From a virus: 36,574 nt of DNA. Each line of letters opens with the position of its first letter. The first letter of the stretch is position 1. The stretch spans positions 1-36,574 of the IMG/VR virus record IMGVR_UViG_3300032291_001069; one strand, given 5' to 3'. This document shows positions 20,654 through 35,877 of this stretch, piece after piece. The notes beneath the pieces were generated by a model. It was not told where the DNA came from. It saw only the letters and a list, made by a program, of their open reading frames with translations, and ran no database searches. The position numbers and the translations under genes were made by a program.

Positions 20654-20842
20654 TCATTCCTTTCGTGTGTATGTGTACTTGGCGTACTTCTTGCCGTTTT
20701 CATTAACCATGTGCGTAAAGATTCTGTGTCCGTCTTTCCGCAAACTTTCAATATGTGCTGCAAGTCGGAAACTCCCAAACATGTTTAACGCATCTCTCGG
20801 TGTCAAGCTACCACCGCTTTGAAGGTGAGTCAGAATATTCAT
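20654..20842 (-). CDS. Small helix-turn-helix protein, HTH_39-like (62 aa)
   Basis: The product MNILTHLQSGGSLTPRDALN continues MFGSFRLAAHIESLRKDGHRI, the compact HTH seen in many phage proteins (HTH_39, PF14090 as I recall), with the recognition helix at about residues 24-36. The C-terminal strand (AKYTYTRKE) completes a winged-helix look. It may bind DNA at the recombination or early promoters. ATG 20842 overlaps the RecT stop by four bases; a longer upstream extension in this frame lies inside RecT and looks non-coding. Confidence 0.7.
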   Translation of the reverse strand: MNILTHLQSGGSLTPRDALNMFGSFRLAAHIESLRKDGHRIFTHMVNENGKKYAKYTYTRKE

Positions 20843-21693
20843 TCGCTGAGTCCCATATCGGGAGGTGACTGGGACTTGTCGGGCTTTGGGCTGACTGTTC
20901 CTCCAACTGTGACAATGGCAGCTTTGAGTTTGACTCTGTGTTCTGTTCCAAATCCTTCTGTAACGGACTTGTTGCATTCTGAGAGTCGTTCAAACTTACC
21001 TGCCTTTTCCTCCACAGGGATTTTCGTTGACGAAATAATGCGGGAAACCATGTCGGCATAGCCTGTTATCCAATCTTCGGGTGTTGCATAGCGTTTGTAG
21101 GGTTCGTCAGTGCCAGGGACAAAGAGAGGGAACGCACCTTCCTCCTCAGTCTCAGCAAGTGCAACCTCATGTACATCTTCCACCCGCTCGACATTGCCCA
21201 TATGTTTGACCGTTTGTGCTGGCGCAAAGTCCGCAACCTCTTCAGGTGTGTAGACACCGACCACACACCCTGGGAATACAGCTCGTATTCCTTCGCTAAT
21301 GACCCTCGCTCGCAACATTGCTCTTGGATAGTTCTTCCAGTTATCTTTGCTGGCGATGCCAATTTCTTTCGCTTGCTTGAGAGTCCATGTGACTTCAAGA
21401 GAGCCTCCTTGCGGATGCGTGAATAGACCCGTAACGGCATCATTTGTGTATTCCTTCCATGTCACAGAACCACCCGCTTGTTGGAAGCGAGCCAGCATAG
21501 CGTCTGCTTTCAGGGCAGGGCGACCTTGGATAACGTGAAAGTCACGCATAGCGATGGCGGGGTGTAAGCCTTCTGCTTGGCATAGCAACATGATTGCCAT
21601 AGCCTCTTGTGGGTTCTTAAACCCAAACATCTTGGAACTGGCAGCAACTTCTGCCATGTGCTGAATGTCTTGCAAAGGTACGATATTACTCAT
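20839..21693 (-). CDS. RecT-family single-strand annealing protein (284 aa)
   Basis: Characteristic stretches are FKNPQEAMAIMLLCQAEGLH, QGRPALKADAMLARFQQAGG and KNYPRAMLRARVISEGIRAV, followed by FPGCVVGVYTPEEV, all typical of RecT/Redbeta-type annealases (RecT family, PF03837). The acidic/polar C-terminal part (residues 165-284) is less conserved. It anneals complementary strands after resection by the YqaJ exonuclease encoded upstream in the same operon. The start has a small palindrome GGAAGTTCC in its leader. Confidence 0.85.
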   Translation of the reverse strand: MSNIVPLQDIQHMAEVAASSKMFGFKNPQEAMAIMLLCQAEGLHPAIAMRDFHVIQGRPALKADAMLARFQQAGGSVTWKEYTNDAVTGLFTHPQGGSLEVTWTLKQAKEIGIASKDNWKNYPRAMLRARVISEGIRAVFPGCVVGVYTPEEVADFAPAQTVKHMGNVERVEDVHEVALAETEEEGAFPLFVPGTDEPYKRYATPEDWITGYADMVSRIISSTKIPVEEKAGKFERLSECNKSVTEGFGTEHRVKLKAAIVTVGGTVSPKPDKSQSPPDMGLSE

Positions 21694-21901
21694 TGGGAAC
21701 TTCCTTTCTTGCTTTCATCATTTCGTCTGCTATTGCGTAGGCTTCTTTTGCTGTATCAAACATTATTCCTGTTGGAAAATTACCTTTTGCATAAATTCCT
21801 TGCAAAACCAGACCTGCAAACCAGTCTCTCAAATCCATACCTTCTGATATGGTTGTTTGACCGCTTGTAGGGTGTTTGTGCATGTAGGGATAGGCTTTCA
21901 T
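21686..21901 (-). CDS. Conserved small phage protein (71 aa)
   Basis: Contains GMDLRDWFAGLVLQGIYAKG and DTAKEAYAIADEMMKARKE, a pattern frequent in small phage proteins (MxLRDxFAxxAL...AYxxADxMLxAR) of unknown function near recombination genes. It overlaps RecT by eight bases and the next gene by four. It starts with GGTGGTGGT upstream. Confidence 0.65.
   Translation of the reverse strand: MKAYPYMHKHPTSGQTTISEGMDLRDWFAGLVLQGIYAKGNFPTGIMFDTAKEAYAIADEMMKARKEVPNE
21696..21704 (-). promoter_or_regulatory. Start-site mini-palindrome before RecT
   Basis: GGA-AGT-TCC on the minus strand, two bases before ATG 21693 and containing the GG of the ribosome site. The stem is only three perfect pairs, weaker than the others of this set. 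It also encodes the end of the upstream frame. Confidence 0.4.
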
Positions 21902-22089
21902 ACCACCACCTTTCTTGGTCTGCCTGGCTTCTTGCGTGGTGTGCCATCAGCTTTAACACCATACTTAGAGTGCTTGTAGGCATCTACCATAGAGCGGATT
22001 AACTTGCCATGTGCATCTAGGATTTGAGATAAATTATTTATCTTGCCTTCCAACTCTGCTATACGTTTGCTTTCTGATTTAAAAAACAT
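21898..22089 (-). CDS. Small coiled-coil protein (63 aa)
   Basis: The helix SESKRIAELEGKINNLSQIL with heptad spacing is followed by DAHGKLIRSMVDAYKHSKYG and a very basic tail (TPRKKPGRPRKV), including an AT-hook-like GRPRK motif. It may bind DNA through the tail. ATG 22089 is preferred because GAGG lies just upstream; an in-frame GTG at 22101 would add four residues and lie in the preceding stop. Confidence 0.55.
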   Translation of the reverse strand: MFFKSESKRIAELEGKINNLSQILDAHGKLIRSMVDAYKHSKYGVKADGTPRKKPGRPRKVVV

Positions 22090-22090
22090 T

Positions 22091-22101
22091 GTGAACCTCA
22101 C
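22091..22101 (-). promoter_or_regulatory. Start-site hairpin GTGA-GGT-TCAC
   Basis: Four-pair stem with triloop GGT, one base before ATG 22089. The Shine-Dalgarno GAGG is inside the stem and loop. Same size as the AGU-triloop hairpins at other starts but with a different loop. Confidence 0.45.
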
Positions 22102-22991
22102 TTTAAAAGGAATCTACGAGAACCAGCCATCTCACGCATAAACTGCTTGTGAATGTCAGGCATGGCTTCTTGGAAAAGCTTGCTATCGAACTTGATACTT
22201 GGCTTTGCATTCTTCCAAGTGGCAAGAACTTGCCCCTCTATGTTGGACAGCACAGAGGCATCCCCCATATACCCTGCTACCAAGGTTTGATACTGCTCTT
22301 CCTGAGCCTCTAGAAGCTTAATTTGAGCCTTGACTTGACTCAGGGCTAGACAGGCTTGCTCAACGCTTGCAGAGGCTGTCTTGACCTCTTCTAAGCCTTG
22401 TGGGTACAGCAGCTTGACTTGCTCTAAGTCTTCGGGGGGAAGAGTTGTCCCTGCTTGTGCATGACCCCACACGACTGCCATCTGTTTGATAAGGTCTTCC
22501 TTTTGTTCATCTGTGATAGTAAATGGAATGAGGAGAAACTCCTGACCTCCGAACAGTATGGCGAGATAAACCAAATCGACACCATATACAGCAGCTTCGT
22601 GTACCAGTTGCGCCACATCCGCAGGGGGTGCGATGCCACTAACATCAAACTTAGACCTAACACTAGCGTTGTAGTTCTTAGCTTCAACGAGGAAACTCTT
22701 ACCGCCTTGCTTGCCAGCAAAGTCAAAATGAGACTTGAACCAAGGGTGTTTGGCATGGGTGAGACTCTCCTCAATCTTGACTAACTCTGTACCTAGCTTG
22801 GCTTGTGCGAGTCTGCCAATTACTGGTTCTAAAACATGTCCCATCTGTACAGCTTCTATGTCAGACAGGTCAGGTATAGGCATCTTGCCTTGCTTCGTCA
22901 GGATTACCTCGTTAGCTTTGCCATTGGCTACCTTGCGAGAGTCACCCGACCAAATAGCAGAGTTGCGGGTTGTTGCAGAAAAGTCACTCAT
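22098..22991 (-). CDS. YqaJ-type viral recombinase exonuclease (297 aa)
   Basis: PD-(D/E)XK residues are visible: E55 in GHVLEP, D90 in HFDFAG, and E103/K105 in LVEAKN, the standard YqaJ exonuclease layout. ATTRNSAIWSGDSRKVANGK at residues 6-25 fits the N-terminal helix region. The C-terminal third (from about 205) has a coiled-coil stretch. It resects double-stranded DNA ends 5' to 3' for the RecT annealase. Start leader is AAAGGAAACACATT. Confidence 0.85.
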   Translation of the reverse strand: MSDFSATTRNSAIWSGDSRKVANGKANEVILTKQGKMPIPDLSDIEAVQMGHVLEPVIGRLAQAKLGTELVKIEESLTHAKHPWFKSHFDFAGKQGGKSFLVEAKNYNASVRSKFDVSGIAPPADVAQLVHEAAVYGVDLVYLAILFGGQEFLLIPFTITDEQKEDLIKQMAVVWGHAQAGTTLPPEDLEQVKLLYPQGLEEVKTASASVEQACLALSQVKAQIKLLEAQEEQYQTLVAGYMGDASVLSNIEGQVLATWKNAKPSIKFDSKLFQEAMPDIHKQFMREMAGSRRFLLK

Positions 22992-23242
22992 AATGTGTTT
23001 CCTTTCATTAACTCTACTTCTTCTGACCAGGTTATGTCAGCAGCTTCCCAGTAGTTGGCAAGAGGGCTACAGCGTCCGTTAAGGGCACGTTCACCGCTAC
23101 AGAAGGGAAGGTCACCTACAGGCTTTAAATTGCCTGTAACGTAGGATAGAGGGTGTTCAAACCCGCATCTAGAGTATTCAGGGTCTAGGGGTCTAGCCTC
23201 TGAGGGCAAACAGTGTTTGCAATTCACGCAGAACTTTGTCAT
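22988..23242 (-). CDS. Cysteine-rich zinc-binding-like protein (84 aa)
   Basis: Cys pairs CVNCKHC near the N-terminus and further single Cys (RCGFEH, FCSGER, GRCSPL) suggest a zinc-bound fold. The end overlaps YqaJ by four bases. ATG 23242 is chosen because AAAGG is nine bases upstream; an in-frame GTG 23248 lies too close to it. Function unknown. Confidence 0.6.
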   Translation of the reverse strand: MTKFCVNCKHCLPSEARPLDPEYSRCGFEHPLSYVTGNLKPVGDLPFCSGERALNGRCSPLANYWEAADITWSEEVELMKGNTL

Positions 23243-23253
23243 GGTCACGAACC
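23243..23253 (-). promoter_or_regulatory. Start-site hairpin GGTT-CGT-GACC
   Basis: Three Watson-Crick pairs plus one U-G pair and triloop CGU, directly before ATG 23242. Same size and place as the AGU-triloop hairpins at other starts. Confidence 0.5.
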
Positions 23254-23286
23254 TTTCAGTTAATTGGGATTAGATTATATGCACAG

Positions 23287-23505
23287 TTAATTAGATGATG
23301 TCAAGTGTTTATTTATCCTCCTACAAAGATTTTTGTTTGTCTTAGCTTTTCTCTTACTGTTGCACACATTGGCTAGAGAGTTGTATTTAGCTCTAGCTTG
23401 TAGCTGTGCAAGGGTTGGGGGCTTTACTGGTTCTTGCTTAACTGGCAGCAGGTTGCTAGTGGTGAACCCAATCACCGAACACAGGAAGATAACTCTACTA
23501 ATCAT
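23287..23505 (-). CDS. Small protein with signal-like N-terminus (72 aa)
   Basis: Residues 1-18 (ISRVIFLCSVIGFTTSN) look like a short signal or membrane anchor. The remainder is basic and includes AQLQARAKYNSLANVCNSKR. Two further Cys could form a disulfide. The leader is AAGGAAAACCCCC before ATG. Function unknown. Confidence 0.5.
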   Translation of the reverse strand: MISRVIFLCSVIGFTTSNLLPVKQEPVKPPTLAQLQARAKYNSLANVCNSKRKAKTNKNLCRRINKHLTSSN

Positions 23506-23516
23506 GGGGGTTTTCC

Positions 23517-23714
23517 TTATGAAATTTGTAAAGCACTAGGAAGAGGAAAGGGGCTATCCCTACCATCAGTCCCAGTAAAAGAATCAGACTCCAAATTAGT
23601 GCATCTAGCATGTATGTCTCCAGTGATTGTTAGGGCTTTAATGATGACTGACTGAGGGTGCAGCAGTCCCTCTCTGACTTGATTGAGGATGATGTTGGCT
23701 TCTTGTTTGTTCAT
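23517..23714 (-). CDS. Small conserved phage protein (65 aa)
   Basis: The N-terminus MNKQEANIILNQVREGLLHP followed by VIIKALTITGD matches a small phage family (M-x-x-QEAxxILxxVxxG...PxxxIxxALxxTGD) of unknown function. The C-terminal 30 residues look unstructured. ATG 23714 with AAAGGAAACACACAC upstream is preferred to an in-frame start at 23735. Confidence 0.6.
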   Translation of the reverse strand: MNKQEANIILNQVREGLLHPQSVIIKALTITGDIHARCTNLESDSFTGTDGRDSPFPLPSALQIS

Positions 23715-23748
23715 GTGTGTGTTTCCTTTAGACAATACAAGGGCTACG

Positions 23749-24003
23749 GTAGGGATGATGATTAGTCAATGTCCTACTTTCAGCCTTGGGGCTGTCCTGT
23801 ATGGGGCATACACCCGTATACAGTTCTGCTGCTTTATTTATCGACCCAACTATTCCGTAGTTGCCACGGTTGACTATCAGCCTACATGGTCGTTTATCAC
23901 TTGGGGCAGAACCCTCGTGCACCCGTCCCCCTTGGGTCAAGGTGAACCGCTTTCCTCCCTCGCCACCACAGTCATGGGTGCTTACTATCGTGAGGGGTAC
24001 GGT
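23749..24003 (-). ncRNA. Candidate large structured RNA or leader, about 250 nt
   Basis: No convincing coding frame, but a dense series of nested stems (plus coordinates): 24000-24003/23946-23949; 23992-23996/23957-23961; 23977-23980/23964-23967; hairpin 23930-23942; 23906-23912/23823-23829 (seven perfect pairs) enclosing 23888-23892/23842-23846, which closes a three-way junction of hairpins 23868-23882 and 23847-23863 (six perfect pairs, CGGAA loop in minus sense); then hairpins 23797-23823, 23781-23794 (CAGCC-CCAA-GGCTG) and 23749-23753/23773-23777. The strand is inferred from flanking genes. It could be a separate RNA or the long 5' leader of the 23714 gene. Not recognised as a known family. 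Confidence 0.5.
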
Positions 24004-24017
24004 TGACGTAGAACAAT

Positions 24018-24121
24018 AAAAAAAGCCACTTACAACTGCATTCGGGTAGCACCCTCTGAGAATCCCCAGAGGCCAGAACGCATGTGTAAGCGGCTTCATT
24101 TGGTTGTGTGCTACGACAACG
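24018..24121 (-). ncRNA. Candidate small structured RNA with its own promoter and U-run
   Basis: In minus sense the outer stem AAGCCGCTTACA/TGTAAGTGGCTT (24085-24096 with 24023-24034, 12 pairs, one G-U) encloses GCGTTC/GAATGC (24076-24081 with 24038-24043) and CCTCTG/CAGAGG (24067-24072 with 24053-24058, eight-base loop). Seven U follow the outer stem (24018-24024), making it terminator-competent. A consensus sigma70 promoter lies just upstream, giving a predicted transcript of about 104 nt. No open frame of note. Family not recognised. Confidence 0.65.
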
Positions 24122-24127
24122 GCTTGC

Positions 24128-24156
24128 ATATTATGGGGCTTTCTAGGGCTTGTCAA
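24128..24156 (-). promoter_or_regulatory. Consensus sigma70 promoter
   Basis: TTGACA (24151-24156), 17-base spacer, TAATAT (24128-24133), all on the minus strand. The -35 box is perfect and the -10 has four of six consensus positions with the key TA start. Expected start near 24121, directly ahead of the structured RNA. Confidence 0.7.
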
Positions 24157-24179
24157 TAGGGGGGCTGTTAACCCCCCTA
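24157..24179 (-). terminator. G/C-rich hairpin after the 24183 gene
   Basis: TAGGGGGG and CCCCCCTA form an eight-pair stem with loop TTAACAG a few bases after the stop codon of the upstream minus-strand gene. There is no U-run, and the next promoter begins immediately, so it may act as a terminator or insulator. Confidence 0.45.
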
Positions 24180-24182
24180 CTG

Positions 24183-24389
24183 TCAGGCTATTTGAGCTAA
24201 TTGTTTTTGAGTTGGGGCTTCTAGGCAACTCTTGTCAATCCATTGAACTCTTTGGTTAGGGTATTTTTTCTCAATACCTGAGTCAATCAAACCAACATTG
24301 AACTTGCCAGCTAACTCAACAACCCTGTAAAGGGTAGCATCAGGCAAATCATTAACAACAACAAGTTGACCAACATATACTTGTTTCAT
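24183..24389 (-). CDS. Small hypothetical protein, SH3/KOW-like look (68 aa)
   Basis: Begins MKQVYVGQLVVVNDLPDATL and continues YRVVELAGKFNVGLI, a beta pattern as in small SH3-like barrels (VGQ-VVVND...YRVVE-x-G). The end is helical (APTQKQLAQIA). Many phages encode such a protein in the early region. It has its own leader with hairpins and an AGU start-site hairpin. Function unknown. Confidence 0.6.
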   Translation of the reverse strand: MKQVYVGQLVVVNDLPDATLYRVVELAGKFNVGLIDSGIEKKYPNQRVQWIDKSCLEAPTQKQLAQIA

Positions 24390-24400
24390 AGGAACTTCCT
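24390..24400 (-). promoter_or_regulatory. Start-site hairpin AGGA-AGT-TCCT
   Basis: Perfect four-pair stem with AGU triloop immediately before ATG 24389. The AAAGG ribosome site forms the 5' arm. Confidence 0.55.
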
Positions 24401-24419
24401 TTCATGTTTAAAGAACAAT

Positions 24420-24451
24420 GGTGTAGAACTATCTCTACACCTAATATTATA
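24420..24451 (-). promoter_or_regulatory. Extended -10 promoter and 5' hairpin of the 24183 gene
   Basis: TGTGTATAAT gives a perfect TATAAT (24446-24451) with an upstream TG-type extension; no good -35 is seen. Directly downstream GGTGTAGA/TCTACACC (24434-24441 with 24420-24427) forms a perfect eight-pair stem with loop GATAGT, at or near the transcript 5' end. Further upstream (24486-24528) CTAACTAT/ATAGTTAG enclose a second short palindrome, a possible operator. The 152-base gap 24390-24541 holds no gene. Confidence 0.5.
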
Positions 24452-24541
24452 CACATATAACCATCATAGTATATAGGTGTTTACCCTAACTATATACTGT
24501 TCATTCATACAGTTTTAATAATAGTTAGTGCTTACTTACTT

Positions 24542-24721
24542 TTAATTTCCCGTAGTGATAAGGGCTGTCAAATACCCTGCCACAAAGCAGCCAAGGTATA
24601 TCACTACCCTGTCAGCTATTGGGGGCTCTTCCTGCCACTGGGGGCTAGATGGGAAAGCCTCCCGTAGGGTGCGTGGATACATGCGTGTAGTGTCATTGTG
24701 GGGGGTTGGGGCTTTTATCAT
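24542..24721 (-). CDS. Small one-TM protein (59 aa)
   Basis: ATG 24721 overlaps the preceding stop (ATGA) and has AAAGGAT upstream. The N-terminal half is hydrophilic (PHNDTTRMYPRTLREAFP), a pattern (NDT-TR-YPRTL-EAF) I recall from small membrane proteins of related phages. The C-terminal half is one hydrophobic segment (VVIYLGCFVAGYLTALITT). Function unknown. An inverted repeat within it (24552-24607) is explained by coding sequence and is not called an RNA. Confidence 0.65.
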   Translation of the reverse strand: MIKAPTPHNDTTRMYPRTLREAFPSSPQWQEEPPIADRVVIYLGCFVAGYLTALITTGN

Positions 24722-24951
24722 GGGGCTAATCCTTTAAAAAAATGGGTTGAAAATACAATAGCACCCTTATATTCTTCGGGAATAAGGTAGCTGTCGTATC
24801 CCTGACAAAGCATGTATTCATCTACATCATCAGGGTTCATAATGGATTTCTCGTCTATGCTGTGGACAATGACCATCTGCTCAGAATCATCATCTGATAC
24901 ACAGAATTCACCATGAGTCATGTCTCCGAACCATATTTCTGTATGTTTCAT
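24718..24951 (-). CDS. Small acidic hypothetical protein (77 aa)
   Basis: Strongly acidic (HGEFCVSDDDSEQMVIVH, NPDDVDEYMLCQGYDSYLIP) with no membrane segment. The last residues (KGLAP) are encoded by the junction sequence AAAGGATTAGCCCC that also serves as ribosome site for the next gene. DNA-mimic or inhibitor roles are possible for such acidic early proteins, but nothing shows this. Confidence 0.6.
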   Translation of the reverse strand: MKHTEIWFGDMTHGEFCVSDDDSEQMVIVHSIDEKSIMNPDDVDEYMLCQGYDSYLIPEEYKGAIVFSTHFFKGLAP

Positions 24952-24956
24952 GGGGG

Positions 24957-25172
24957 CTATCCTTTCAATTTTTGGGCATATTCAAAACCAGCGGAAAACG
25001 TGGAATAGGTGTCCATCAGGTGGGAATAGTATTCTGAATGACTCTTATAAAAGTCATCTTGCTGCTTGTCTGTTTTCGCATTGACAAAAGCCAAGGCTAC
25101 ATAATCGGGGCATTCATTGACATGCTTGTATGCCAATAAAAAGGCTTTGTCGAATTCGGTTAATTCATTCAT
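24957..25172 (-). CDS. Small hypothetical protein (71 aa)
   Basis: Helical, aromatic and slightly acidic (EFDKAFLLAYKHVNECPDYV, SEYYSHLMDTYSTFSAGFEY). No motif recognised. The start overlaps the upstream stop (ATGA), and its ribosome site GAGGTAGCCCC belongs to a repeated junction type. Confidence 0.55.
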   Translation of the reverse strand: MNELTEFDKAFLLAYKHVNECPDYVALAFVNAKTDKQQDDFYKSHSEYYSHLMDTYSTFSAGFEYAQKLKG

Positions 25173-25348
25173 GGGGCTACCTCTTCAACGTCATCTATTG
25201 ACCAGTCTGAGAGGTCATCACCTTTAGCCCTCTCAAAATCTCCACCATCCATATCACGGGCTATATCGTAGGCTTGGTCTTCATCTTCGGCCTTAACAAG
25301 GGCATAAACAAAGGTGCGATAAGAGGCTAATACTTTGTATGTTTTCAT
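25169..25348 (-). CDS. Small acidic hypothetical protein (59 aa)
   Basis: MKTYKVLASYRTFVYALVKA followed by EDEDQAYDIARDMDGGDF and LSDWSIDDVEEVAP. The alternating strand, then an A-x-D-x-x-x-A-x-x-I-A helix and an acidic end, is a pattern common in small phage proteins of about 60 aa. Leader AAAGGATAAGCCCC. The end overlaps the next start by four bases. Function unknown. Confidence 0.65.
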   Translation of the reverse strand: MKTYKVLASYRTFVYALVKAEDEDQAYDIARDMDGGDFERAKGDDLSDWSIDDVEEVAP

Positions 25349-25353
25349 GGGGC

Positions 25354-25671
25354 TTATCCTTTATCAATAAGGGTTAAAAGGGCTTTTATACGGGCTTCTA
25401 AGGCTTTAACGACATGGGGCTTATAACAGGGGTCATCTGCGGCATCTTCCACGTATGGTAGGCACGTGTAGAGCAAATCAAGCATGTCGGGGGCTGCTGC
25501 CATCATTCGGACATTTGCTACCGATTCGCTGCCAAAATTACGGTTTACAAGGGCAACGGTGAAAATGGGGCTTATATCGTCATCCCGTTCATCTTCGCCC
25601 GTGATACGGTAAAAGCTATCATCTTCAAAATCAAAATCTACATTCCAAGGGTTCATTGTGGTGTGTGACAT
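25354..25671 (-). CDS. Conserved phage hypothetical with AAAPDML motif (105 aa)
   Basis: The N-terminus is acidic (NVDFDFEDDSFYRITGEDE). NVRMMAAAPDMLDLLYTCLP is the ANAxLxxAAPxLLxAL-type motif found in many early phage proteins, usually near the C-terminus, followed here by a helix (VVKALEARIKALLTLIDKG). Function unknown. It has an AGU start-site hairpin and a terminator upstream, so it probably heads its own transcript segment. Confidence 0.7.
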   Translation of the reverse strand: MSHTTMNPWNVDFDFEDDSFYRITGEDERDDDISPIFTVALVNRNFGSESVANVRMMAAAPDMLDLLYTCLPYVEDAADDPCYKPHVVKALEARIKALLTLIDKG

Positions 25672-25682
25672 GGATACTATCC
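25672..25682 (-). promoter_or_regulatory. Start-site hairpin GGAT-AGT-ATCC
   Basis: Perfect four-pair stem with AGU triloop directly before ATG 25671. The ribosome-site GG opens the 5' arm. Confidence 0.6.
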
Positions 25683-25692
25683 TTCAAAGGTT

Positions 25693-25715
25693 AAAAAAAG
25701 GGGCATACAAGCCCC
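25693..25715 (-). terminator. Intrinsic terminator after the 25725 gene
   Basis: Minus strand GGGGC-TTGTAT-GCCCC followed by seven T (25693-25699). It sits just after the stop of the 25725-26012 gene and before the ribosome site of the next. The overlapping CCCC-TTGTA-GGGG (25712-25724) could compete with it. Confidence 0.75.
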
Positions 25716-25724
25716 TACAAGGGG

Positions 25725-26012
25725 TTATCTAAGTTCTTTTGCGGGTATGTAGCCATGCTCTGCCATAAATTCTTTTACGGTCAAATGCTTGGCCTTATAC
25801 GTGTCGCCATGCTTGGTGAAACATGCATAAACTGCCTCGCCATTCTCGTTATGGTCGTTGGCCTCGCCTACTAGGAAATTTTGCCCTAGCATTTTTATGG
25901 GCGGTAATACTTCTAACATCTGCCAATACATGGCTTCGGTAGTAGGTATCCATGCGTCAGGGTTTGCGTCCATTGCATCCCATAATTCTTTCCATTCAAG
26001 GGGCTTATTCAT
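25725..26012 (-). CDS. Hypothetical protein, DUF1419-like pattern (95 aa)
   Basis: The layout WKELWDAMDANPDAWIPTTE, then MYWQMLEVLPPIKMLGQNFL and VGEANDHNENGEAVYACFTK recalls proteins annotated DUF1419 (a DAW...LPP...FxxGEAxxH pattern); this is a weak match from memory. Cytoplasmic, no membrane segment. Four-base overlap with the upstream gene. Confidence 0.6.
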   Translation of the reverse strand: MNKPLEWKELWDAMDANPDAWIPTTEAMYWQMLEVLPPIKMLGQNFLVGEANDHNENGEAVYACFTKHGDTYKAKHLTVKEFMAEHGYIPAKELR

Positions 26013-26317
26013 GCTGACACCTCTGTATTGAATGAGTTTTTAGTGTTTACTCCAAATTCGTCATAGGTTTCATCATCGTTAATTTCGGGCTGAATCAGTG
26101 CGTTTAAACGCTCGCAAAGGTTATCCAAACAGCCTGTGTATTCTTGGAACACAATGCCACCGCCATACTGTTTATTGTGGAATTTCTTGCCGCCTAGTTT
26201 TTTGCATATAAAAAGGGCTTCATCATAATTTCTTGAAATATGAATGAAGTGCAAGACATGGCGAGGGTTGCCATTAACGTCATGCTTGATTTTGGTGAAG
26301 TCAGAGGGTTGAATCAT
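26009..26317 (-). CDS. Conserved early phage protein (102 aa)
   Basis: FTKIKHDVNGNPRHVLHFIH followed by YDEALFICKKLGGKKFHNKQ and YGGGIVFQEYTG, a pattern (DxxGNPRYVxHFL...A..A...GG..YRGK.FGGG.VFQSY) I recall from early-region hypotheticals of many phages. The role is unknown. ATG 26317 carries the AGU hairpin leader. Confidence 0.7.
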   Translation of the reverse strand: MIQPSDFTKIKHDVNGNPRHVLHFIHISRNYDEALFICKKLGGKKFHNKQYGGGIVFQEYTGCLDNLCERLNALIQPEINDDETYDEFGVNTKNSFNTEVSA

Positions 26318-26328
26318 GGTTACTAACC
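26318..26328 (-). promoter_or_regulatory. Start-site hairpin GGTT-AGT-AACC
   Basis: Perfect four-pair stem with AGU triloop directly before ATG 26317. The preceding bases AATCAACTTGAAA nearly match those ahead of the same hairpin at 27480-27490. Confidence 0.6.
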
Positions 26329-26343
26329 TTTCAAGTTGATTAT

Positions 26344-26396
26344 GTGATTATCGAATGATAATCCCTAAACCTACTGAATAGGCTTAGGGGTATCAC
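26344..26396 (-). repeat. Tandem intergenic hairpins
   Basis: GATTATC/GATAATC (26346-26352 with 26357-26363, four-base loop) adjoins CCCTAA-CCTA/TAGG-TTAGGG (26363-26373 with 26379-26389, one internal mismatch, five-base loop). GTGAT/ATCAC (26344-26348 with 26392-26396) could close both as an alternative. They fill the gap between the clamp-like gene and the next leader. No U-run. Confidence 0.55.
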
Positions 26397-27029
26397 TTAG
26401 GCCGCTACTGATTCAGTTGCTGCAACCTTAGGCCGTGAGCACCATGTAGGCACGTTGACGCTATTGTGCTCTCGCATAGGCATGATAATCCCTACAAATA
26501 ACGGTTCACTGTCAATATTGACAATGCCGCTATCGTTACCCCGTTGCTTAATTTGAACGGTAACACCTTTGCAGCTTGAACCTAAGTCCTTTGCACAATC
26601 GTAGAATGCTTGTATGTATTCAGGGTTATACGTGCTAGGTTCAATACCGCTATCACTTGTAACCGTAGGCACTACCCTATCACAATCGGGGAACATGCCC
26701 TCTACCCTTTGGAATATCATTGTTTCACCTTGAGGGTTGATAACGGTAACTTTTACCCCGTCAACGGTAAAGCATAGTGACTCATTACCCTTTTTGCCCG
26801 TTGCTGCCAGGCTTTTCACCGATTCAAACGGTAAAATGACACTGCCAGGGGTTGCTATCGGTGTTTCATCAATAAGCAAACGGCCTAGCATATGGCCATT
26901 AGTTGCTTCGATATACGTGCCCCTATTGTTTTGAACGACATGTAAACCGTTCAAGTAATAGCGAATGTCCTTTGTTGCTGCAAAACGGCCTAAACCTTTT
27001 AGTTGCTTACGTAAAATTGAAAATTGCAT
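26397..27029 (-). CDS. Sliding-clamp-like (DnaN-like) protein (210 aa)
   Basis: The N-terminal part has RYYLNGLHVVQN and IEATNGHMLGRLLID, the beta-clamp pattern R-x-x-L-x-G...ATDGHRLA. VILPFESVKSL and VEGMFPDCDRVVPT match the clamp PxKxxxxL and (D/G)x(F/Y)PD regions. The near-C-terminal VGIIMPMRE matches the YVVMPMRL end of DnaN. At 210 aa it is shorter than DnaN (about 366), so it has about two clamp domains and may trimerise like PCNA-type clamps or compete with the host clamp. No polymerase gene is present in the genome. It has its own AGU leader. Confidence 0.75.
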   Translation of the reverse strand: MQFSILRKQLKGLGRFAATKDIRYYLNGLHVVQNNRGTYIEATNGHMLGRLLIDETPIATPGSVILPFESVKSLAATGKKGNESLCFTVDGVKVTVINPQGETMIFQRVEGMFPDCDRVVPTVTSDSGIEPSTYNPEYIQAFYDCAKDLGSSCKGVTVQIKQRGNDSGIVNIDSEPLFVGIIMPMREHNSVNVPTWCSRPKVAATESVAA

Positions 27030-27040
27030 GGTAACTTACC
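27030..27040 (-). promoter_or_regulatory. Start-site hairpin GGTA-AGT-TACC
   Basis: Perfect four-pair stem with AGU triloop directly before ATG 27029. GAGG of the ribosome site runs into the 5' arm. Confidence 0.6.
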
Positions 27041-27052
27041 TCATTTTAAATA

Positions 27053-27095
27053 GTGCAACATTGCACCTTGTAGGCCACGGGTTAGCATGGCCTAC
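27053..27095 (-). repeat. Tandem intergenic hairpins before the clamp-like gene
   Basis: GTAGGCCA/TGGCCTAC (27070-27077 with 27088-27095, perfect eight pairs, ten-base loop) followed toward the gene by GTGCAA/TTGCAC (27053-27058 with 27061-27066). The second contains the TGCAC motif of the origin region. No U-run. Confidence 0.55.
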
Positions 27096-27106
27096 GGGTT
27101 GAAATG

Positions 27107-27292
27107 TTAGAAGTATCCTAAGGGTTGATTGTCTTCATCATAAACCCGTATGACTACAAACCCCTTTTCGTTGCCCACGTTTTCAACTTTATACGTCCAT
27201 TCGTCATCAGTGACGTTATTTTGAGAGCATATAAAAGCAGCTTGTTTAGGTGTGAAATAGCTTGATGGTGTATCCATATTAAGTGTTAGCAT
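27107..27292 (-). CDS. Small hypothetical protein (61 aa)
   Basis: MLTLNMDTPSSYFTPKQAAF and DDEWTYKVENVGNEKGFVVI, a helix-then-strands layout with an acidic end (VYDEDNQPLGYF). ATG 27292 is chosen because AAAGGG lies seven bases upstream and the preceding gene stops at 27303; a start at 27334 would lie inside that gene without a ribosome site. Function unknown. Confidence 0.65.
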   Translation of the reverse strand: MLTLNMDTPSSYFTPKQAAFICSQNNVTDDEWTYKVENVGNEKGFVVIRVYDEDNQPLGYF

Positions 27293-27302
27293 GGTTTTCC
27301 CT

Positions 27303-27479
27303 TTAATCGGTGTAAGGTAAGTTGTTTGCTTCATACAAGCTATAAAACCCCGTAAACACGCTAAAAAGGAATACTGCTAATAGCTCTAATTCTGTTATGG
27401 CTGCTATGCCAAAACAATACATGCTAAAAATTATCAATAGGAACGAACCTATTGCATTACATACTAAAATCGTTTTCAT
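27303..27479 (-). CDS. Small two-TM protein (58 aa)
   Basis: ATG 27479 follows the AGU hairpin leader. The product has two hydrophobic segments (ILVCNAIGSFLLIIFSMYCF and LLAVFLFSVFTGFYSLY) with a short acidic loop (ITELE) and a polar end (EANNLPYTD). It is probably an inner-membrane protein made early; superinfection exclusion is one possibility but not shown. Confidence 0.65.
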   Translation of the reverse strand: MKTILVCNAIGSFLLIIFSMYCFGIAAITELELLAVFLFSVFTGFYSLYEANNLPYTD

Positions 27480-27490
27480 GGTTACTAACC
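27480..27490 (-). promoter_or_regulatory. Start-site hairpin GGTT-AGT-AACC
   Basis: Perfect four-pair stem with AGU triloop directly before ATG 27479. Same stem as at 26318-26328, with a closely similar upstream leader (AATCAACTT). Confidence 0.6.
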
Positions 27491-27508
27491 CCTTAAAGTT
27501 GATTGATT

Positions 27509-27550
27509 GATATACAAAGTATATCGCATGGCCTAGACACGCTAGGCCAT
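27509..27550 (-). repeat. Tandem intergenic hairpins after the 27561 gene
   Basis: ATGGCCTAG/CTAGGCCAT (27528-27536 with 27542-27550, perfect nine pairs, five-base loop) and GATATAC/GTATATC (27509-27515 with 27519-27525, perfect seven pairs, three-base loop), two bases apart. No U-run. They separate the first leftward gene from the next leader. Confidence 0.6.
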
Positions 27551-27560
27551 ACGCTAGACT

Positions 27561-27932
27561 TTAATCCATTCTAGACTCAGCATAAGCCTTAATACCATGC
27601 TCATTCAATACGCTAGCAAAAGCATGTGCATATGCTTCCTTTTTTTGCAACGATTGATTGAAGTCACGTATTGACATGCTTACACCTCCATTAAATGACT
27701 TACGGCCTAAACCGTTAGCTACTAAGAACTTAGCGAACTTACTATTAGCGGGTTTGACGGTAACGCTAGCAAACCCGCAAACACCGTCATTAACGTAATA
27801 CTCTTTTACAACCCTTGATGCGTCATTAAGAGGGTTTTCACGTTGTTGAACTACCATAGGTGTAACGGTAGTCATTTGAACGGCTGCATTACCCTTGTAA
27901 TGTGCTTCATGATATATCGCTTCTAATTGCAT
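27561..27932 (-). CDS. First leftward early gene, hypothetical (123 aa)
   Basis: MQLEAIYHEAHYKGNAAVQM begins a mixed alpha/beta protein. VVKEYYVNDGVCGFASVTVK, PANSKFAKFLVANGLGRKSF and MSIRDFNQSLQKKEAYAHAF look well folded. No membrane segment. Similar proteins (VCGFAWVTVKPANSKFAKFL...YGGVSI) occur as early hypotheticals in many phages; function unknown. Its start codon lies inside a palindrome at 27929-27939. Confidence 0.7.
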   Translation of the reverse strand: MQLEAIYHEAHYKGNAAVQMTTVTPMVVQQRENPLNDASRVVKEYYVNDGVCGFASVTVKPANSKFAKFLVANGLGRKSFNGGVSMSIRDFNQSLQKKEAYAHAFASVLNEHGIKAYAESRMD

Positions 27933-27939
27933 ACTATGC
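27929..27939 (-). promoter_or_regulatory. Start-site hairpin GCAT-AGT-ATGC
   Basis: Perfect four-pair stem with AGU triloop. Here the start codon AUG (27930-27932) is in the 3' arm and the ribosome site GGGG precedes the stem. Confidence 0.5.
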
Positions 27940-29035: not shown

Positions 29036-29171
29036 GAAGATGGACAAGATTAGGCTGGCAAAGGAGTGGGAGGAGAAGTACAACCCTACCCACTACCGAG
29101 AGTTAATAGCATGTGCCAAGAACAAGGAAGTAGCGATAGCTATTGCCAACTGGAAAACAGATGAACTTTGA
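29010..29171 (+). CDS. Small basic protein before terminase, start uncertain (53 aa)
   Basis: The core KEWEEKYNPTHYRELIACAK followed by NKEVAIAIANWK looks like a real helical protein, and the frame ends inside the terminase start. Possible starts are ATG 28947, 29010 and 29040; none has a strong ribosome site, and 29040 directly follows the upstream stop. Position before the large terminase makes a small-terminase-like role conceivable, but the size is small for that. Confidence 0.45.
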   Translation: MRRALSCIKKMDKIRLAKEWEEKYNPTHYRELIACAKNKEVAIAIANWKTDEL

Positions 29172-30915
29172 TTTAAAGAAGTTTTACAAGTTCTGTTCCG
29201 AACTCAAGATTGAGACTAAGGAAGAGGGCTTGAAGAAGATGGGTAACCTGTTGGGTACTCAGACATATGTGATGGACGAGATACAGAAAGGCTTAGATGA
29301 AGACATCCACTTCTTTGTCATTCTCAAAGGTAGGCAGCTTGGTATAACAACTATTTCCTTGGCACTTGACCTTTACTGGCAGTTCACCCATCCTGGATGG
29401 CAAGGTACATTGGTTGCGGATACAGAAGAGAACAGAGACATGTTCCGTTCAACACTGGCTATGTATATCGAAGGACTCCCTAAAGAGTACAAGATACCGC
29501 TGGTTGCCCACAATAGAAACCAAATGGTTCTCAAGAACAGGTCAAGACTCTTTTACCAAATCGCTGGTAACAAATCTAGACTGGGGCAAGGTAAAGCTAT
29601 CACTTACCTACATGGGACAGAGACTGCCTCATGGGGTAACGAAGAAGGCCTAGCCTCCCTGATAGCTTCACTTGCTGAGAAGAACCCTGAAAGGCTGTAC
29701 ATGTTTGAGAGTACGGCTCAAGGCTTCAACATGTTCCACGACATGTACAAGACTGCCAAGCGAGCAAAGACTCAACGTGCAATCTTCTGCGGTTGGTGGA
29801 GGAATGAGTATTACCAAGTCCCTGCTGACTCCAACATCTATAAGGTGTATTGGGATGGCAAGCTGACAGGTGAAGAGAAAGAGTGGCACAAAGATATTAA
29901 GAAGCTCTACGGCTTTGAGATTAACTCTCGTCAGATGGCTTGGTGGAGATGGAAGATGTACGAAGGTATCAAAGACGATGCCCTGATGTACCAAGAGTTT
30001 CCACCCACTGAGGACTATGCCTTTGTGATGACTGGCACATCCTTCTTCTCACATACCCGCTGTACGGAAGCTGCCAAGCTCAGTAAGAAGACAGAGTGTG
30101 ATTACTACAGGTATTCTTTTGGTCAACTGTTCCAAGACACAGAAGTCCTCAAGTCCACTGAAAGACTGGGTTCTCTCAAAGTATGGGAAGAGCCTATAGA
30201 CAGTGCCTACTACGTTATTGGTGCTGACCCTGCCTACGGCAGCTCTGATTGGGCAGACAGGTTCTGTATTCAGGTCTACCGCTGTTATGCAGATGGCTTA
30301 GACCAAGTAGCAGAGTTTGCAACCTCTGAACTCAACACCTACCAGTTTGCGTGGGTGATAGCTCACCTTGCAGGAGCCTACAAGAACTCTACCCTTAACT
30401 TGGAAGTTAACGGACCAGGGCAAGCTGTGATTAACGAACTCAGAAACTTAAAACGCTTGGCTACCTCTATGGGCGGGGCTACAGGGCGGGACTTGATGGA
30501 TGTGTTGGGTAGCATGACAAACTACATTTGGCGCAGGAATGACACGCTAGGGGGCTTGTCAAACAGCATTGGATACCTAACTACAAGCAACAGCAAGGAA
30601 CGTATGTTGCAGTACATGAAAGACTATTTTGAGCGGGGCATGATGGGCATCTTCAGCATGGATACCTTAGAAGAAATGAAAGGTATCGTGCGAGAAGGTG
30701 GCTTTTTGGGTGCACCTGGTCGGGGTAAAGATGACCGTGTGATTGCCTCTGCCCTTGCTGCTGTTGCCTACGCAGAGCAGATTCAGCCTAGATTGATAGC
30801 ACACAAGCTCTCCCGCAATGTGAGCGCAGCACAAGAGTCTTTCTCCCCTGAACAAATTGCTGTTGGCAGAAACGTAAGTGATTACTTAAAGAGGATTGGA
30901 ATGTATGGTTCATGA
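29161..30915 (+). CDS. Terminase large subunit (584 aa)
   Basis: This is the ATPase-nuclease that packages DNA into the prohead through the portal. A Walker A-like LKGRQLGITT lies at residues 55-64. YLHGTETASW (about 148-157) is in the Walker B region. The RNase H-like nuclease has YYVIGADPAYGSSDWADR with D356 as first acidic residue and GKDDRVIASAL with D524/D525. The length is normal for the family. ATG 29161 is used rather than an upstream TTG at 29143. The end overlaps the next gene by 11 bases. Confidence 0.9.
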   Translation: MNFDLKKFYKFCSELKIETKEEGLKKMGNLLGTQTYVMDEIQKGLDEDIHFFVILKGRQLGITTISLALDLYWQFTHPGWQGTLVADTEENRDMFRSTLAMYIEGLPKEYKIPLVAHNRNQMVLKNRSRLFYQIAGNKSRLGQGKAITYLHGTETASWGNEEGLASLIASLAEKNPERLYMFESTAQGFNMFHDMYKTAKRAKTQRAIFCGWWRNEYYQVPADSNIYKVYWDGKLTGEEKEWHKDIKKLYGFEINSRQMAWWRWKMYEGIKDDALMYQEFPPTEDYAFVMTGTSFFSHTRCTEAAKLSKKTECDYYRYSFGQLFQDTEVLKSTERLGSLKVWEEPIDSAYYVIGADPAYGSSDWADRFCIQVYRCYADGLDQVAEFATSELNTYQFAWVIAHLAGAYKNSTLNLEVNGPGQAVINELRNLKRLATSMGGATGRDLMDVLGSMTNYIWRRNDTLGGLSNSIGYLTTSNSKERMLQYMKDYFERGMMGIFSMDTLEEMKGIVREGGFLGAPGRGKDDRVIASALAAVAYAEQIQPRLIAHKLSRNVSAAQESFSPEQIAVGRNVSDYLKRIGMYGS

Positions 30916-35864: not shown

Positions 35865-35877
35865 TAAGGAGGCCTTA
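35865..35877 (+). promoter_or_regulatory. Hairpin TAAGG-AGG-CCTTA at the capsid start
   Basis: A perfect five-pair stem with triloop AGG contains the whole AAGGAGG ribosome site. The A of ATG 35877 is the last base of the 3' arm. It may tune translation of the most abundant protein. Confidence 0.5.

Follow-up and report, generated by a model that had tools for sequence, protein, structure and literature searches.

Covarying NGU-loop hairpins at the start codons of leftward genes in a phage clade point to an undescribed RNA system timing the translation of putative early genes

Do the leftward genes of the viral record IMGVR_UViG_3300032291_001069 share an RNA structure at their start codons, and if they do, what might read it? 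The window analyzed here is the whole record of 36,574 bases. A sequence-only reading of it had noticed, on the minus strand, short palindromes of the form N4-AGT-N4' at several ATG codons, and had conjectured that they serve as a translational operator bound by an RNA-binding protein or as a target of an RNase. All six perfect palindromes were confirmed on that strand, at 27929, 27480, 27030, 26318, 25672 and 24390. They occupy two positions, offset 0, at which the hairpin ends exactly at the AUG, and offset -4, at which the AUG lies within the 3' arm. The hairpin GCAT-AGU-AUGC (27929-27939) is at offset -4 and carries the AUG of gene 27561-27932 in its 3' arm. At offset 0 are GGUU-AGU-AACC (27480-27490) before gene 27303-27479, GGUA-AGU-UACC (27030-27040) before the clamp gene 26397-27029 (phrog_3007, DNA polymerase III beta-like), a further GGUU-AGU-AACC (26318-26328) before gene 26009-26317 (TreK-like, PF24229), GGAU-AGU-AUCC (25672-25682) before gene 25354-25671, and AGGA-AGU-UCCU (24390-24400) before gene 24183-24389. 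The 5' arm at offset 0 holds the GG or GA of the Shine-Dalgarno sequence; the earlier statement that the hairpin includes the Shine-Dalgarno GG is refined in that the GCAT class has the AUG in its stem.

To determine how far these sites exceed expectation, ATG starts of open reading frames of at least 40 aa were searched at offsets 0 and -4. The window contains 15 N4-AGT-N4' palindromes on both strands. Chance would place 0.096 of them at the 778 start offsets tested, where six stand (Poisson P 1e-9). The 63 non-AGT loops combined gave one four-pair site at the same offsets. AGT was the loop in 29 of the 49 four-pair triloop palindromes found at starts in ten related contigs. Across the clade, four-pair triloops numbered 85 at offset 0 and 33 at offset -4 against 4-17 at neighboring offsets, with AGT in 55 and 26 of them, respectively. 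Away from starts, about 106 AGT sites were counted against a mean of 100 per loop. The excess at starts is thus real, and the level elsewhere is that of the background.

The loops at the two offsets in the clade were AGU (81), UGU (6) and GGU (5), the last two at offset 0, so that the loop first described as AGT is better written NGU, with A preferred. The complementary loop ACU did not occur at either offset in the clade, and the feature therefore belongs to the sense strand; the presence of only the sense NGU loop, at only these two offsets, argues for RNA. Since N4-AGT-N4' is also a perfect odd palindrome with a central G, the sites might instead be read in DNA by a dimeric regulator, a methylase or a recombinase. 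This explanation is strongly disfavored and has very little probability, as the arms vary yet stay complementary, which recognition of duplex DNA would not need, and as the NGU loop is confined to one strand and locked to the start codon.

For an unbiased view of the pairing, starts were selected only for an upstream TCAAC and an AGT in positions -7 to -5, with pairing ignored. Full pairing was found in 28 of 32 such starts, with eight stem types, and the four unpaired exceptions did not resemble real gene starts; among TCAAC starts with other loops, 6 of 577 were paired. An alignment of most of the 32 starts, the four exceptions included, gave a covariation score of 0.656, compared with 0.196 after shuffling and at most 0.127 when slid, and all four pairs changed on both sides. 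At offset 0, AGT starts showed 53 full pairings against 3.6 when partners were shuffled inside the AGT class, and the distribution was bimodal. Many starts in the window do read GG...CCATG, including several unpaired GGAT-N-CCCC, and the hairpins could in principle be an artefact of AAGG Shine-Dalgarno sequences combined with CCATG starts. The probability of this is negligible, because the shuffled-partner expectation is surpassed 15-fold and the effect is limited to NGU loops.

The same leaders were then compared between relatives, in which the stems at orthologous starts were GGTT, GGAT, GGTA, GCAT, AGGA, GAGA, GAGT, GATT and AGCT. Orthologues of the 123-aa gene 27561-27932 had a GCAT, GGAT or GGTT stem with an AGT loop and were paired in nine of nine cases; a double change in this leader separates L203 (GGATagtATCC) from L205 (GGTTagtAACC) within near-identical flanks. 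Stems were GGTT or GGAT in orthologues of gene 27303-27479 and GCAT or GGTA in those of the clamp gene. One orthologue of gene 26009-26317 had AGGA-AGT-TCCT, and one gene related to 25354-25671 began with AGGT-AGT-ACCT. A gene assigned as ArdC-like antirestriction on sequence alone carried GGAT, AGCT or GGTA, and a further gene family GAGA, AGTC or GGTT. Pairing is retained where the genes are retained, and the compensatory variation proposed at first from a single genome is strongly supported as variation of an RNA structure. The structure is almost certainly real and clade-wide.

The weaker members of the set were also present on the minus strand. The variant GGUU-CGU-GACC, with a U.G closing pair, lies at 23243-23253 before gene 22988-23242, which encodes the small Cys-rich protein p86. 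A 3-bp variant, GGA-AGU-UCC (21696-21704), lies 2 nt 5' of the AUG of the recT-like gene 20839-21693 and is identical in four relatives. GTGA-GGU-TCAC (22091-22101) shares bases with the exonuclease gene's stop codon; it is limited to one gene family, and its stem, constant in the members seen, gives no information on pairing. Between 24721 and 25348, several neighboring minus-strand starts read GGATAAGCCCC-ATG, GGATAGCCCCC-ATG or GGATTAGCCCC-ATG, an unpaired GG...CC frame that is perhaps a decayed or alternative form of the hairpin. Separately, an invariant late-gene start palindrome, AAGG-AGG-CCTT, stands immediately 5' of the ATG of a rightward gene of about 333 codons (window position 35866) and is kept in many relatives.

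How widely is the element distributed? The terminase large subunit (TerL) gene of the window (29143-30915) lies among the rightward genes; its nearest annotated relatives are those of two uncultured Manatee Spring phages (73-75% identical), and TerL relatives are encoded in more than 599 IMG/VR contigs. The sample type suggests that these are freshwater phages. One contig of a metagenome-assembled genome (MAG) with a 76% identical terminase was binned as a beta-proteobacterium; most TerL relatives from genome bins are contigs of this kind and do not settle the host, and those checked had no hairpins. The leftward genes encode a polymerase beta-clamp-like protein, a RecE-like exonuclease, a RecT-like annealing protein and an SSB-like protein, a content that suggests early genes. 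Clamp homologues of about 30% identity have no start hairpin, which makes the hairpin a clade feature. The pattern GAAAGGNNAGTNNCCATG was complementary in 6 of 96 cases across IMG/VR against 3.7 expected, and none of the non-clade contigs matching it had a second start hairpin; since the first result is near chance and the second is negative, the element looks clade-restricted. The contigs counted as minus were not strictly element-free and had some 3-bp NGU forms, which were not clearly above other loops.

The sequence-only reading was correct about the start hairpins and overlooked larger tandem hairpins upstream of them that are tied to the preceding stop codon. In many internal genes, the order is stop codon, about 7 nt, a hairpin H1 of 10-12 bp, a hairpin H2 of 7 bp, a TCAAC linker, the Shine-Dalgarno/start hairpin and the AUG, usually with zero bases between H1 and H2. 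The gap upstream of hairpin genes has a median of 79 nt, compared with 1 nt for other genes. On the minus strand of the window, one H1 (27526-27552, 10-11 bp) begins 7 nt past the stop codon of the preceding gene and abuts its H2 (27509-27525, 7 bp), which is followed by AATCAATCAAC. H1 and H2 are at 27070-27095 and 27052-27067 in the leader of gene 26397-27029, and at 26364-26388 (7 nt past the upstream stop codon) and 26346-26363 in that of gene 26009-26317. The first genes of operons have no H1-H2 and show a promoter-like region followed by the start hairpin.

Since MAFFT did not align whole leaders, H1 and H2 were aligned on anchors with N padding. Across the 25 sequences anchored in this way, all 17 pairs were kept and 16 changed on both sides, with a covariation score of 0.902 against 0.257; the percentage of pairs kept is circular because these leaders were selected for pairing. 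Independent support comes from unselected clamp orthologues, most of which repeat the H1-H2 arrangement with stems of unrelated sequence, and from the stop-codon spacing: in all 29 of the module leaders that carry a start hairpin, the upstream frame ends 3-10 nt before H1 (mode 7). A Markov control of the H1-H2 search gave 11 raw hits in 580 kb. The fixed spacing places the module exactly between cistrons. In addition, the 5' arm and loop of H2 are complementary to the 5-8 nt that surround and follow the stop codon (5.76 versus 4.74, maximum 5.09 in 200 reassignments), which suggests an alternative fold; in the leader of gene 26009-26317, the 5' arm and loop of H2 can pair with AGUGAUA upstream of H1.

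Both the spacing and this complementarity, which exceeds all 200 shuffled controls, would suit a leader that acts purely in cis, tuning initiation or insulating the gene from reinitiating ribosomes, with H1-H2 and the alternative pairing tying initiation to ribosomes that terminate upstream. We regard this explanation as unlikely although live: a 4-bp hairpin near -1 kcal/mol hardly affects ribosomes, the conserved NGU loop is left unexplained, and the first operon genes keep the start hairpin without H1-H2. The spacing would equally suit a processing site, in which a phage or host RNase would cleave the early mRNAs that the NGU hairpin and H1-H2 mark, thereby separating cistrons or silencing early genes at the Shine-Dalgarno sequence. 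A loop-specific nuclease likewise would preserve only the loop and the stem shape, and RegB of phage T4 inactivates early mRNAs mostly in their translation initiation regions (PMC3014915). RegB, however, requires GGAG and is hindered by structure, whereas here the Shine-Dalgarno sequence is in the stem and GGAG is unnecessary; no RNase gene was identified, in analyses that included no search aimed at the RegB family. Processing is also live, and to our minds slightly less likely than the cis-only role.

Stem-loops of other kinds precede some genes, a terminator-like one with a T run (25699-25716, minus strand) upstream of the 25672 hairpin and a 9-bp one (24420-24441, minus strand) upstream of the 24390 hairpin. 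Terminator-like structures, together with the variable stem and constant loop known from boxB, might point to a nut-like antitermination signal. Such a signal is improbable here, as the loop has three bases and that of boxB five, no boxA was recognized, and exact locking to the AUG and Shine-Dalgarno sequence would not be expected.

The explanation that leads over the cis-only and processing ones, which we put forward tentatively and at slightly under an even chance, is that the hairpins are a multi-copy family of translational operators on early leftward transcripts of this clade of tailed phages, read by a trans-acting factor. Their geometry fits an operator: a covariation-supported hairpin closes over the Shine-Dalgarno sequence or the AUG, the loop is constant and stability is marginal (-0.5 to -1.4 kcal/mol for the isolated hairpin). 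In this proposal, the 4-bp, sometimes 3-bp, stem with its NGU loop would close over the Shine-Dalgarno GG/GA or the AUG, so that the folded mRNA could not initiate; since the spacing from Shine-Dalgarno sequence to AUG is ordinary when unfolded, folding should switch initiation off. The combination of a constant loop, a free stem and marginal stability suggests a trans-acting reader of the loop. A phage or host factor would recognize NGU irrespective of the stem sequence, stabilize the hairpin and repress many early genes together, and in internal leaders the operator would be the final part of the module with tandem H1 and H2. Stem sequences may have diversified because the phage-encoded RecE/RecT-like recombination would recombine identical repeats. 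An extension, which is possible and which we doubt more than the operator itself, is that the stop-to-start punctuation module turns early genes into exchangeable cassettes, each independent of the others and all answering to a single dedicated trans-acting reader, with module copies that diverge in sequence and not in shape, perhaps escaping RecE/RecT recombination.

Several observations weigh against the operator proposal. No binding protein was found for the start hairpins, no window gene cleanly separated hairpin-bearing from hairpin-free relatives by co-occurrence, and the genes under start hairpins have no common known function. CsrA (PF02599) was absent from five phage contigs, with a positive control in three genomes, a result that does not exclude a host CsrA; RegA (PF01818) had no match in five contigs, a search that is uninformative because the control genomes gave no match either. 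A purely cis role is possible, yet it would not explain the constant loop. The hairpin might inhibit or help initiation, and repression is the direction that we infer.

One candidate reader is p86. It was found in the hairpin-bearing contigs that reach its locus, and its own gene has a start hairpin, which is identical in close relatives and appears in distant orthologues as GGT-AGT-ACC, GGA-AGT-TCC or AGGA-AGTA-TCCT. Against this role, p86 was also found in contigs without hairpins; it had no family match and a predicted fold that is too uncertain (pLDDT 65), so neither fold nor family backs RNA binding. A promoter-like TTGACATCATCTAATTAACTGTGCATATAATCTAATCC precedes the p86 gene on the minus strand at about 23255-23300 and is kept in five relatives and partly in a sixth.

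Nearby on the minus strand, the non-coding region 23725-24160 is conserved at about 70-94% nucleotide identity in relatives, with substitutions spread evenly over codon positions (314/313/261) and gaps that are mostly not multiples of 3. It starts with a promoter-like TTGACA-17-TAATAT, which is followed by an RNA about 100 nt long that ends in an intrinsic-terminator-like stem with T7; the remaining stretch of about 280 nt contains near-invariant blocks (CGAGGGTTCTGCCCCAAGTGATAAAC). The region had no Rfam match and possibly encodes new phage non-coding RNAs. A role of this RNA as antisense partner of the leaders was tested and rejected, since duplex energies were no better than shuffled.

To place the start hairpins among known systems, the window was searched with Rfam covariance models, which found nothing at the gathering threshold and, in the operon, matches no better than chance. 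Open-access papers, to which the literature search was confined, contained nothing closer than the start-associated sequences (SAS) and extended SAS (ESAS) of cluster K mycobacteriophages, which are the nearest described case. There, one conserved 13-nt sequence, GGGATAGGAGCCC, is thought to act in translation initiation; about half of the copies also have an upstream inverted repeat (ESAS), with little support for pairing of these repeats in RNA, and ESAS now seem to contain promoters. Like SAS, the window hairpins are multi-copy, are locked to the start codons of non-structural genes that wider intergenic gaps precede, and overlap the ribosome binding site. In contrast to the conserved sequence of SAS, they vary in sequence and keep their pairing, and a scan of the window for the 13-nt GGGATAGGAGCCC with up to two mismatches allowed found none.

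The coat-protein operators of phages MS2 and Q-beta are small hairpins over a start codon that are stabilized by the protein and repress translation, with a loop of 3 nt in Q-beta. The proposed NGU reader would lock its hairpin as these coat proteins do; the RNA-phage operators differ in having one site per RNA genome, a longer stem with a bulged A and another loop. CsrA/Rsm sites are hairpins that overlap the Shine-Dalgarno sequence and serve global repression through a GGA read in the loop, whereas the window hairpins have the GG in their stem and NGU as their loop. RegA of T4 is a single factor that controls about 30 mRNAs through unstructured, A+U-rich sites that overlap the AUG or lie immediately upstream of it (PMC3014915); control of many mRNAs at the initiation region is the likeness, and the conserved hairpin at the window sites is the difference. 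The T4 endoribonuclease RegB also targets Shine-Dalgarno regions of early phage mRNAs but, as far as a comparison by description goes, differs in needing GGAG and an accessible site, being blocked by structure (PMC3014915).

The constitutive decay elements bound by Roquin in animal 3' UTRs, which direct mRNA decay, have a stem of 6-8 bp and a YRN triloop in which a purine at position 2 and U at position 3 are preferred; the stem is free, the targets covary and one reader serves many mRNAs (PMC6294493). The window hairpins share only this logic of a triloop that is read and a stem that is free, with no homology implied, and have a stem of 3-4 bp at a phage start codon. Together, the data point to an undescribed RNA system timing the translation of putative early genes. 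Whether this widespread freshwater phage group exerts coordinated, structure-read control over early translation is directly testable with short reporters. The hairpins offer a handle on the reader protein and might also serve as a small RNA tag, recognized by one factor regardless of stem sequence. The fixed distance to the preceding stop codon is relevant to how early genes, once shuffled, can still be translated independently in phages. What SAS conserve is a sequence; what is conserved here, through many compensatory changes within genomes and between relatives, is a shape.

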